Assembly (NCBI RefSeq): GCF_900142875.1 | Contig: NZ_FRCK01000002.1 | Coordinates: 248,001-312,000 of the forward strand | Source: Paracoccus solventivorans | GTDB taxonomy: Bacteria > Pseudomonadota > Alphaproteobacteria > Rhodobacterales > Rhodobacteraceae | Direction: 5' to 3' | DNA length: 64,000 nucleotides | Part shown: positions 60,387 to 63,450 of the stretch, piece by piece | Layout of the letters: each line of letters starts with the position of its first letter | Position numbering within the stretch: position 1 is the first letter of the stretch | The notes under the pieces: model-generated | Databases searched by the model: none | Told to the model about the DNA's origin: nothing | The model's input: only the letters and a program-made list of their open reading frames with translations | Made by a program: the position numbers and the translations under genes

Positions 60387-60872
60387 ATGTCCCGTTTCAC
60401 CCTGGCCACGGCCCTCGCACTGGCCCTCGCACTGGCGCTGTCCGCCCTACCCGCCGCCGCGCAGCAAGCCCCCGACACCCCCTTCCAGATGCCGCGCGCG
60501 GATGATCCCGCGCCCGGGGCGCCCTCCGACGACGCCCCCGCCGGAAGCGTGCTCGAGGGTTTCCTGATGGAGCTTTTCGACCGCGCCCAGCCGCATCTGG
60601 AGGGGCTGGCCGAGGACATGGGCGGGCTGATGGAGGAATACCGCCCCATGCTCGACGACCTCGGGCGGCTGATGGACGACATCGGCAATTACGAGCTGCC
60701 GCCCGAGCGGCTGGCGAACGGCGACATCCTGATCCGCCGCAAGCCGGGCGCACCGCCGCCGCCGCCGGTGGAAAACCTGATGCCGCGCAGCCCCGGCGCG
60801 CTGCCGCCCGGGCATCCGCCGCTGTCCGACCCGCCCAGCCCGCCGCCGCTGCTGCCGCAGATCGAGCTTTAA
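60387..60872 (+). CDS. Small secreted Pro-rich protein
   Basis: 161 residues. A signal peptide made of Leu-Ala repeats (MSRFTLATALALALALALS, cleavage after PAAA near 27) is followed by a helical acidic domain (FLMELFDRAQPHLEGLAEDM, PMLDDLGRLMDDIGNYE), the conserved-looking segment LANGDILIRRKPGAPPP, and a Pro-rich end. Similar Rhodobacterales proteins are sometimes annotated as ATPases, but no ATP motif is visible here. Unknown function. The stop overlaps the convergent kinase-exonuclease gene end by 4 bases. Confidence 0.78.
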   Translation: MSRFTLATALALALALALSALPAAAQQAPDTPFQMPRADDPAPGAPSDDAPAGSVLEGFLMELFDRAQPHLEGLAEDMGGLMEEYRPMLDDLGRLMDDIGNYELPPERLANGDILIRRKPGAPPPPPVENLMPRSPGALPPGHPPLSDPPSPPPLLPQIEL

Positions 60873-63088
60873 TAGCGCAGCCGCGCGAATTGCGAGCGGT
60901 CCGAGGCCGCCCGCGCCTGCCCCAGCGTCTCGATCCCCTGCCGGGCCAGCAGCGGGATCATGCGCACGAACACCTCGGCGGTGGCGATGGCGTCGCCCAG
61001 CGCGGTGTGGCGGGCGCCGATCTCCACCCCCAGCCGCGCGGCCACCGCCTCCAGCGAATGGCTGTCCTCGGCCGGGTGCAGCACGCTGGACAGCAGCAGC
61101 GTATCCAGCAGCGGATGGTCGAAGCGCAGCCCGGTCGCGGCTTCCTTGAGCTTCAGGAACCGCATGTCGAATGCGATGTTGTGGCCGACCAGCACGCTGT
61201 CGGCGGCAAAGCGGTGGAACACCGGCAGCACCTCGGCGATGGCGGGCTGGCCGCGGACCATCTGCGGGGTGATGTGGTGGATGGCGATGCCCGCCTCGGG
61301 GATCGAGCGCTGCGGGTCGACCAGCTGGTCGATGGTCTCGCCGCGCAGGATGCGGGTGTTGACGATGCGCAGCGCCCCGATCTGGATGATCTCGTCGCCG
61401 CCGGCGGGGTCGAGGCCGGTCATCTCGCAGTCGAAGACGGTGAAGGCCAGTTCCGACAGCTTGCGGTTGTCGTCGGCGCTGGCGTGGCCGGCGGCGAACA
61501 GGCCGAAGTCGTAGAACTCGGGGCGGCTGCCGATGGCGGATTCGGGGGGCGCGGTGTCGGCGGTGGCGCGGGGCAGCAGCAGCCGGAAGAACCGCCCGCC
61601 GCCACTGCCCCCGAAACTGTCGCGCTCGCGCTCCAGCCAGATCTCGCCGCCGTGGCGGTCCACCACCTCGCGCACGCTCAGCGCCCCGGCCACCGGCTGC
61701 GCCATCGGCTCGTCGGGCAGCGCCGAATAGTCGCGCGGGTCCAGCGCCGCGCCATCGGCCACCCAGCCCAGGTCCAGATGCGCCCGCGGCCCCGCCGGGG
61801 TCAGCCGCAGCCACAGCACCGGGTCGGGATGCAGCGCCAGGATGCGGCGCGCCAGATGGTCCAGCGCCCCGATCAGCCCGAAGCTGTCGATGAGCAGCCA
61901 CAGGTCCTGCGCCATCGGCTGGGTGGTGATCGGCGCGCCCGCGGTGGCGGCCAGCCGGCGCACCGCCGCCGCCAGCAGGTCGGTACCCAGCATGTCGTGC
62001 AGCGGCCAGCGCGAGCCGATATCCTGCGCCGCCGCCTCCTCGTCCGCCAGCAGCCGCCGGTGCATGGCCGCCACCTCGTCGCGGATCACCGACAGGAAGC
62101 GGTCGTGGTCGGCGGCGCCAAGGTCGGGGTATTCCAGCATGTCCAGCGCCGCCTGCATGTTGGCGACCGCGGCGCGGCTGCGTTCATACATGTCCTGCAG
62201 GGCGCGGTCGCGGCGGGTCTGGCGCTCGTGATCCTCGGTGATGTCGTCGAGCATCAGCAGAAACCCGGTCAGCGCCTCGGGGTCGCTGCCGTCGCTGTCG
62301 TCGGCCTCGCCCCCCATCTCGGCGAAATCGGTGCGCCGCACCGGCGCCACGCTGGCGCGCAGCAGATGCCCGGCGTCCGAGGCGGTGACGAATTGCGCGG
62401 CCGCCGCGCTGCCGTCGGCGCCGCGGGCGATGCGGGCCTCGACCCGGTCCAGCGCGTGGTCCAGCGCCGCCTTGTCGATCAGCGCGTGGATCGAGCGGCC
62501 CAGCCCGATCAGCTCTGCCCCCGCGCTGTCGCCGCCGCCGCGCCCCGAAATCCGCCGCGCCAGCGCCCGCATCCGGCCGTTGTAAAGCAGGATCCGCCCC
62601 TCGCGGTTGCAGACCACGACGGCGTGGTCGAGCTCGGTCATCAGCGCCGCCAGCTGGTCGCGCTGCTCGGCGACGCTGCGGCTGGCGTCGGCGACCAGCC
62701 GCGCCATGTAGGAGGCCAGCGCCCGACGCTGGCCCAGCAGCCGGTCGATTTCCTGCGCCAGCGCCTGGGTTTCGGGGGTGTGGGCGATGTCGGGGACGGA
62801 ATCCATCGTCTCGTCGGCGGCGGCGATGCGCATCGCGCCCAGCAGGCGCTGGGGGGCGACGATCAACCGGTGGCGGGCGCGCTGCGCCAGCCACCCCAGC
62901 AGCACCGCCGCCCCCAGCCACCACAGGAACATCACCATCCAGGTCGCTTCCAGCGCCTGGAACACCGCCTGCCGCAGCGCCGCGCCCCGCGGTCCCAGCA
63001 CCGACAGGAACACCACCGCGCCGCCCAGCGACCACAGCCCCAGCGCCACCCCCGGCGCGATCAGGGGTGCGAGCCGCCCGGGCTTCAT
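60869..63088 (-). CDS. Membrane PAS/degenerate histidine kinase fused to DEDDh exonuclease
   Basis: 739 residues. Two N-terminal membrane helices (about 8–32 and 47–68), a helical linker, a PAS-like domain (ELDHAVVVCNREGRILLYNG), then a HisKA-like helix pair with no phosphoacceptor His where expected (ERSRAAVANMQAALDMLEY), and an ATPase-like end (RHGGEIWLERE, GGGRFFRLLLP). The C-terminal DnaQ-type 3'-5' exonuclease (from about 546) has Asp553, Glu555 (VFDCEMTGLDP), Asp641 (GHNIAFDMRFL), His694 and Asp699 (RHTALGDAIATAE). It is translationally coupled to the response regulator. Confidence 0.92.
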   Translation of the reverse strand: MKPGRLAPLIAPGVALGLWSLGGAVVFLSVLGPRGAALRQAVFQALEATWMVMFLWWLGAAVLLGWLAQRARHRLIVAPQRLLGAMRIAAADETMDSVPDIAHTPETQALAQEIDRLLGQRRALASYMARLVADASRSVAEQRDQLAALMTELDHAVVVCNREGRILLYNGRMRALARRISGRGGGDSAGAELIGLGRSIHALIDKAALDHALDRVEARIARGADGSAAAAQFVTASDAGHLLRASVAPVRRTDFAEMGGEADDSDGSDPEALTGFLLMLDDITEDHERQTRRDRALQDMYERSRAAVANMQAALDMLEYPDLGAADHDRFLSVIRDEVAAMHRRLLADEEAAAQDIGSRWPLHDMLGTDLLAAAVRRLAATAGAPITTQPMAQDLWLLIDSFGLIGALDHLARRILALHPDPVLWLRLTPAGPRAHLDLGWVADGAALDPRDYSALPDEPMAQPVAGALSVREVVDRHGGEIWLERERDSFGGSGGGRFFRLLLPRATADTAPPESAIGSRPEFYDFGLFAAGHASADDNRKLSELAFTVFDCEMTGLDPAGGDEIIQIGALRIVNTRILRGETIDQLVDPQRSIPEAGIAIHHITPQMVRGQPAIAEVLPVFHRFAADSVLVGHNIAFDMRFLKLKEAATGLRFDHPLLDTLLLSSVLHPAEDSHSLEAVAARLGVEIGARHTALGDAIATAEVFVRMIPLLARQGIETLGQARAASDRSQFARLRY

Positions 63089-63450
63089 GCCAGCAGCCCC
63101 CGGATGCGGGCCGCGAGATCGCGGGTCGAAAACGGCTTGGCGACAAAGGCATCCGCCCCCGCCCCCATGGCGCGGGCCTGATCGGCCTCGCGCGAACGCG
63201 CGGTCAGCATGACGATGCGGGTGCCCGCCAGCGCGGGGTCGCTGCGCAGCGTCTCGCACAGGTCGAAGCCGGAGAGGCCCGGCATCATCGCGTCCAGCAG
63301 CACCAGCCGCGGACGCTCGGCGCGGATCATCGCCAGCGCCTCGGCGCCGTCGCGGGCGATCAGCACGCGGTGGCCCTCGCGTTTCAGCAGGAACTCCAGC
63401 GAGACGACGATGTTCGGCTCGTCGTCGGCGATCAGCACGGTGTGGGTCAT
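63085..63450 (-). CDS. Single-domain response regulator (CheY-like)
   Basis: 121 residues: VLIADDEPNIV with the acidic pair Asp9/Asp10, phosphoacceptor Asp53 (LVLLDAMMPG), MLTARS (Thr) and the Lys in FVAKPFS. There is no output domain. Its start overlaps the kinase stop and its stop overlaps the exonuclease fusion gene (both ATGA), so the three are made together; the fusion protein is the likely partner. Confidence 0.95.
   Translation of the reverse strand: MTHTVLIADDEPNIVVSLEFLLKREGHRVLIARDGAEALAMIRAERPRLVLLDAMMPGLSGFDLCETLRSDPALAGTRIVMLTARSREADQARAMGAGADAFVAKPFSTRDLAARIRGLLA

Follow-up and report, generated by a model that had tools for sequence, protein, structure and literature searches.

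The stretch of DNA analysed here, called the window, comprises 64,000 nucleotides of the Paracoccus solventivorans genome (contig NZ_FRCK01000002.1, positions 248,001 to 312,000). On its minus strand lies a gene for a protein in which a histidine kinase-like part is fused to an exonuclease, next to genes for a receiver-only response regulator and a histidine kinase (Table 1). The domains of the fusion protein follow one another as transmembrane hairpin, PAS-like, DHp-like and CA-like, then DEDDh exonuclease. A membrane protein with PAS and HisKA/ATPase-like regions had been proposed here from the sequence alone (the original prediction), and the AlphaFold2 (AF2) model bears this out, with the transmembrane hairpin and the PAS-like, two-helix and CA-like parts all present. 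In Pfam, PAS and HATPase_c scored only below threshold and HisKA gave no match. The full-length model, based on a 62-sequence alignment, had a mean pLDDT of 84.4 and a pTM of 0.48. It placed helices at residues 7-30 and 33-91 and a long pair at 284-318 and 325-359, and the exonuclease was well predicted. A Foldseek search of this model against the PDB returned PAS-DHp-CA kinases at the top (WalK model 9a5d and VicK 4i5s), with PolC/DnaQ exonucleases slightly lower.

Table 1. Positions in the window of the fusion gene, its parts and the coupled genes.
Feature	Position	Strand	Basis or remark
Pseudokinase-exonuclease fusion gene (predicted)	60869..63088	-	ATG start, 739 amino acids plus stop
Two long helices (transmembrane hairpin and exit helix), residues 7-91	62816..63070	-	AF2 secondary structure; hydrophobicity judged by eye; hairpin also in relatives
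PAS-like domain, residues 153-283	62240..62632	-	AF2; Foldseek to PAS-DHp-CA kinases; Pfam PAS below cut-off
DHp-like helix pair, residues 284-359	62012..62239	-	Glu302 in place of the acceptor His; Arg305 retained
CA-like domain, residues 360-512	61553..62011	-	Alignment and model; without N-box Asn
DEDDh (PolC/DnaQ-type) exonuclease domain, residues 541-739	60872..61468	-	D553, E555, D641, H694, D699
ATGA overlap, receiver stop and fusion start	63085..63088	-	Read directly in the sequence
Receiver-only response regulator, 121 amino acids	63085..63450	-	Pfam and alignment; Asp53
ATGA overlap, histidine kinase stop and receiver start	63447..63450	-	Read directly in the sequence
Histidine kinase core, 255 amino acids	63447..64000	-	Runs off the window; start at window-equivalent 64214

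The genes on this strand of the genome are ordered acs, DUF485, actP-type symporter, DUF294/CBS, histidine kinase, receiver and fusion, the first four lying outside the window. NCBIfam scored ActP at 945.8 (cut-off 750) and the acetate-CoA ligase at 1007 (cut-off 724.95), and DUF485, DUF294, DUF294_C and CBS passed their Pfam cut-offs. By these identities, the cluster is a predicted acetate-uptake operon, to which the fusion gene belongs. Part of the original prediction were ATGA overlaps that couple the fusion gene to those of a histidine kinase and a receiver-only regulator; both overlaps and both proteins were confirmed. The kinase is a bare core, having neither a sensor domain nor an SLC5 part.

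The nuclease and kinase-like halves of the fusion

A survey of homologues found both halves joined in a single chain in the 83 sequences examined, which comprise the window, two same-genus relatives and the best 80 among 507 confirmed candidates from one genome-collection scan (the best-80 set). The best-80 set favours close relatives, and several of its contigs end near the gene, so that absent partners there are not proven losses. Best-segment identities among these best 80 of the 507 were 33-52%, with Beta-, Gamma- and Deltaproteobacteria in the record titles. As far as sequence comparison can date it, the fusion is an old family.

RNase_T (PF00929) matched residues 551-707 of the fusion with an E-value of 1.9e-35. 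The five residues of a complete DEDDh nuclease had been named in the original prediction, and their positions proved exact: Asp553 and Glu555 are conserved in 83/83 sequences, and Asp641, His694 and Asp699 in 82/83 each, where the single exception is a gap. A loss of nuclease residues in most homologues was not found among the 83 sequences. The domain shares 40% identity with 2p1j, an exonuclease domain of the PolC type (a Foldseek match; phmmer E-value 1e-29), and the DEDDh set within an RNase_T fold identifies it as a predicted 3'-5' exonuclease. The C-terminal part is thus, by residues and fold, a complete DEDDh exonuclease. It shares catalytic residues and fold with the PolC-type and DnaQ domains (2p1j, 1j53); unlike them, it has no polymerase partner domain and is attached to a membrane anchor and signalling domains.

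In the kinase half, the acceptor column of the 83-sequence alignment holds Glu in 60 sequences, Asp in 10 and His in one, and neither N-box position holds Asn in any of them (0/83). An active kinase was rejected on these counts. The alignment of the fusion profile with the cores of the partner histidine kinases (hhalign, E-value 5.6e-19, 220 columns) set the acceptor His of the latter opposite Glu302, in line with the original prediction that no phosphoacceptor His is present, and no conserved His emerged in that column. This match indicates that the kinase half descends from a histidine kinase of its neighbour's kind. We also considered the conserved His of same-genus clade-B relatives (RRHAATL) as an acceptor and rejected it, for it stands five residues after the acceptor column. 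An Arg three residues past the acceptor position is present in 78/83 sequences.

Residues 270-512 modelled alone had a pLDDT of 89.0. The CA part superposed on the PrrB CA domain (1ys3) with a Z-score of 15.0 and a root-mean-square deviation (rmsd) of 2.6 over 133 residues, and the whole pseudokinase model on DivL (4q20) with a Z-score of 13.3 and an rmsd of 15.5 over 206 residues. Matches over whole histidine kinase cores had rmsd values of about 6 to 18, which means that the domains are alike and their arrangement is not. By residues and model, the kinase half is a pseudokinase that has kept the histidine kinase fold and lost the acceptor His and the N-box Asn; phosphorylation by the relic itself cannot be expected.

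The partner proteins have kept their residues. Asp53 and Lys105 are retained in 102/102 receivers, and the H, N, N, D, G, G and G residues in 44/44 histidine kinase cores. In the best-80 set, the receiver gene lies directly upstream of the fusion in 59/80 loci, within 60 bases of it in 57 of these 59, and a histidine kinase gene together with the receiver gene in 48/80. The receiver-fusion overlap was -4 in 33/59 loci, a figure that leans to overlap since the start nearest the receiver stop had been chosen. A chance neighbourhood of the fusion and its partners was rejected, because the same partners recur in many genera. In four loci of a same-genus clade (L110, L111, L117 and L118), a small membrane protein stands in the place of the histidine kinase, between DUF294 and the receiver; the receiver and fusion are still coupled there.

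Most partner kinases are larger than that of the window, with frames of at least 840 amino acids in 43/48 loci. The six N-termini that were read are membrane proteins. In hhalign, 37 partner N-termini matched one symporter profile with an E-value of 1.5e-8 and the ActP profile with an E-value of 0.0059 and a probability of 6; Pfam did not report SSF for them at an E-value of 0.01. Most partner kinases may have an SLC5-related N-terminus. They lie in acetate-uptake clusters, like CrbS/R and RpuS/R, histidine kinase systems of the SLC5-STAC kind that serve growth on acetate and pyruvate (PMC5715377, PMC9100948). Unlike CrbS and RpuS as those papers outline them, the partner kinase examined (L053) has HisKA and HATPase_c only and lacks a receiver at its C-terminus; the regulator is a receiver-only protein, not one of the LuxR type; and the window kinase has lost the SLC5 part.

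Receiver genes and DHp-like helices across the family

To the own locus were added genomes drawn by phylum, where a close exonuclease was present in 60/397, and by class (34/387). Up to 20 kb around the matches were fetched and annotated with hidden Markov models (HMMs) built in this analysis. The final set of 91 loci consists of the own locus, 12 hand-picked from 37 other genomes with matches, 60 from the phylum draw and 27 from the class draw that had not yet been fetched, minus nine dropped as stand-alone or DUF294-fused (L172-L179 and L199), all nine without receiver and without DHp. The DHp helices were scored as present at an aligned length of at least 50 in the first 65 loci and at an HMM score above 40 bits in the 26 added ones. 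The length scoring was used because the pseudokinase HMM barely detects the diverged clade-B relics (scores 0-23). One locus, L201, passed with 46 bits; its receiver scored 48 bits (Pfam 2e-07).

The exonuclease was found as full fusion, transmembrane-PAS-exonuclease, transmembrane-exonuclease, EamA transporter-exonuclease, exonuclease-DUF294 and stand-alone forms. In the EamA form (L200:9667-11184, L202, L203 and L207:9688-11277), the exonuclease is fused behind a complete EamA-type transporter and lies next to DUF294; the transporter was identified by Pfam in L200 and L207 and by sequence appearance in L202 and L203.

Each of the 91 loci has a membrane or sensor part. The DHp helices and an adjacent receiver-only gene occurred together in 53 and were both absent from 36; two had the helices only, and none the receiver only. 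Split, independently regulated halves, which would have counted against the original prediction, were not found. Forms without the kinase half do exist, DHp being absent in 36/91, and none of these 36 has an adjacent receiver. On the exonuclease-domain tree, the receiver required a minimum of 12 changes and the DHp helices 11. Eight independent pairs were available on supported branches, of which on average 6.9 differed the same way for both characters, 0 the opposite way, and 1.1 showed no difference; the median p of the pairs test was 0.0156 (range 0.0156-0.0312).

Intermediate forms point the same way. In L130 the DHp helices are gone, the CA-like part is kept, and there is no receiver. In five further loci (L149, L155, L157, L160 and L161) the helices are shortened to 36-47 residues, and none has a receiver. 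Moreover, 13 phylum-drawn loci kept the receiver and DHp with no histidine kinase in the fetched 20 kb, which indicates that DHp is tied more closely to the receiver than to the kinase. Among the 65 loci analysed first, the residue corresponding to Arg305 is Arg in 43/43 receiver-linked proteins, compared to 2/6 unlinked proteins with a residue there. The joint presence of receiver and helices suggests that the dead kinase may be the docking site by which the small phosphorylated receiver switches the nuclease.

The proposed switch, its rivals and its known relatives

In our view, the fusion probably provides the output of a two-component system: a DivL-like pseudokinase would read a phosphorylated receiver and so control a membrane-bound exonuclease. 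The active histidine kinase would phosphorylate the receiver-only regulator at Asp53, and the receiver would dock onto the DHp-like helices of the fusion. The pseudokinase would then sense the phosphorylation state of the receiver, as DivL does with DivK~P, and the resulting movement, along with input from the membrane and PAS parts, would make the cytoplasmic DEDDh 3'-5' exonuclease on the same chain more or less active. Monocarboxylate supply might thereby be coupled to the trimming of an RNA (or of some other 3' end). The original prediction had been a nuclease under signal control, switched by the CheY-like protein, and it is the reading that our comparison supports best, given the halves joined in 83 sequences and the receiver that tracks DHp over 91 loci; the docking, its dependence on phosphorylation, the direction of the effect on the nuclease, the substrate and the physiological aim are what we infer within it.

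The closest precedent is DivL of Caulobacter, a pseudokinase by which the phosphorylated single-domain regulator DivK~P is sensed; its Arg553, three residues past Tyr550, is needed for DivK~P to bind (PMC4211667). DivL and the fusion have in common the PAS domain and DHp-CA fold, a replaced acceptor His, an Arg at acceptor+3 and a receiver-only partner. They differ in that the acceptor position holds Tyr in DivL and mostly Glu in the fusion family, and that DivL is reported to be coupled to another kinase pathway (CckA), whereas here the exonuclease is on the same chain. Receiver binding is shown for DivL; for the fusion it is the genes that are jointly present. The sequence-profile search did not return DivL, and the link is one of fold and residue spacing.

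Several observations weigh against the receiver-controlled nuclease. The 91 loci were not sampled at random, and each raw number counts loci rather than events. In the 65 loci analysed first, five supported pairs yielded a p of 0.0625, after which the sample was enlarged once. Two loci (L121 and L186) have DHp without an adjacent receiver, L186 with a histidine kinase and a receiver nearby on the other strand; three (L112, L184 and L186) have a histidine kinase in the locus and no receiver adjacent to the fusion or exonuclease; and the clusters of L112 and L184 include both a histidine kinase and a receiver, next to an exonuclease form devoid of DHp. An Arg at acceptor+3 is common in active kinases too, and HELRT was read in the partner kinases, so that its conservation amounts to retention, not proof. 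The full-length model, with its pTM of 0.48, is no guide to how the domains of the fusion are arranged. The genome of the window also has, at C10 (L183:5811-10806), a second histidine kinase of this type, a full-length membrane protein accompanied by a receiver-only gene of its own; together with the sensorless kinase of the window, this makes the true kinase uncertain. In Pseudomonas putida, the stand-alone form of the exonuclease was important for growth on pyruvate and not on 20 mM acetate (PMC9927547). The kinase-receiver pair at C10 adjoins a short-chain fatty acyl-CoA regulator (ScfRs, Pfam 3.3e-36).

As to the substrate, the DUF294 protein is the most constant partner, found within the 20-kb locus in 56/61, 12/12 and 23/27 loci of three locus sets, and it is present also where the receiver, the histidine kinase and the kinase half are gone. 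In five loci (L172, L176, L177, L178 and L179; by Pfam in L172, L176 and L177), the exonuclease and the DUF294/CBS nucleotidyltransferase form one open frame, which suggests that the nuclease and nucleotidyltransferase act on one substrate. It is conceivable, though we would not expect it, that the two are writer and eraser, the DUF294 protein attaching nucleotides to an RNA 3' end or a protein, and the exonuclease taking them off again at a time set by the receiver. Such a pair is compatible with the switch proposed above. Against the pair speaks that DEDDh enzymes are known to act on nucleic acids. DUF294_C belongs to the same Pfam clan as the C-terminal domain of GlnD/GlnE (PMC3710099), which favours the pair, whereas the DUF294-side mutants pflu5625 and pp_0354 had no growth phenotype under the conditions used in the accounts given of them (PMC5715377, PMC9927547). 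The combined version, in which receiver and dead kinase switch an exonuclease that removes nucleotides added by DUF294 to an acetate-uptake target (the transporter or an RNA), is a shade more doubtful; if it held, the output of a two-component system would be a reversible nucleotide mark instead of transcription.

It is rather improbable that the kinase relic is a scaffold, dimer-former or receiver sink near the membrane, with the nuclease constitutive or set by the PAS and membrane parts alone. Transmembrane-PAS-exonuclease forms without the kinase half do exist and are conserved in several genera, so the nuclease can evidently be used without receiver input; the joining of the relic to the nuclease, and its erosion alongside the receiver, would be left unexplained. 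A reverse flow, in which the substrate or PAS state of the fusion alters its hold on the receiver and tunes the kinase-receiver pair toward another output, seems very unlikely to us. A receiver-only regulator may have other partners, and the membrane-bound fusion would be near a transporter, but nuclease catalytic residues need not be retained for this, yet they are kept in every aligned sequence. A housekeeping DnaQ-type repair or proofreading exonuclease placed here by accident, for which the identity to 2p1j would speak, is scarcely credible because the operon is conserved across loci, with the same partners in many genera, the protein is a membrane fusion, and the genome has another DnaQ-like exonuclease at C18.

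With regard to published systems, PP_0353 of P. putida is an RNase_T-family protein encoded in an operon with the CBS protein PP_0354, within the MxtR/ErdR (CrbS/R) regulon (PMC9927547), and the P. aeruginosa actP cluster comprises PA3232-PA3235 (PMC9765439). In both, as described, the gene for an RNase_T exonuclease neighbours one for a CBS protein as well as actP/yjcH, and the setting is acetate-regulated; this gene context recurs in the genome of the window as acs-DUF485-actP-DUF294-kinase-receiver-fusion. The difference, again by description, is that the PP_0353 authors matched RNase_T only, the passages on the gene mention no kinase relic or coupled receiver, and the regulation is transcriptional. 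According to these sources, the stand-alone nuclease in acetate regulons, whose role was left open there, and receiver sensing of the DivL type are already published. In the open-licence literature, we found neither a pseudokinase-nuclease fusion described nor a receiver-only regulator to which an output of this sort is ascribed.

The outputs of receiver-only regulators are in many cases unknown, and the widespread family described here offers one that could be assayed in a tube. If the receiver-controlled nuclease is real, the DivL principle of a kinase turned receiver sensor gains an enzyme as output. It would also bear on why a nuclease sits in acetate and pyruvate regulons, a question that the P. 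putida study left open (PMC9927547).

Lastly, a small gene on the plus strand (window positions 60387-60872), for which a Pfam search gave no match, is convergent with the fusion gene and meets its stop; its product has a signal-peptide-like start and a proline-rich end.

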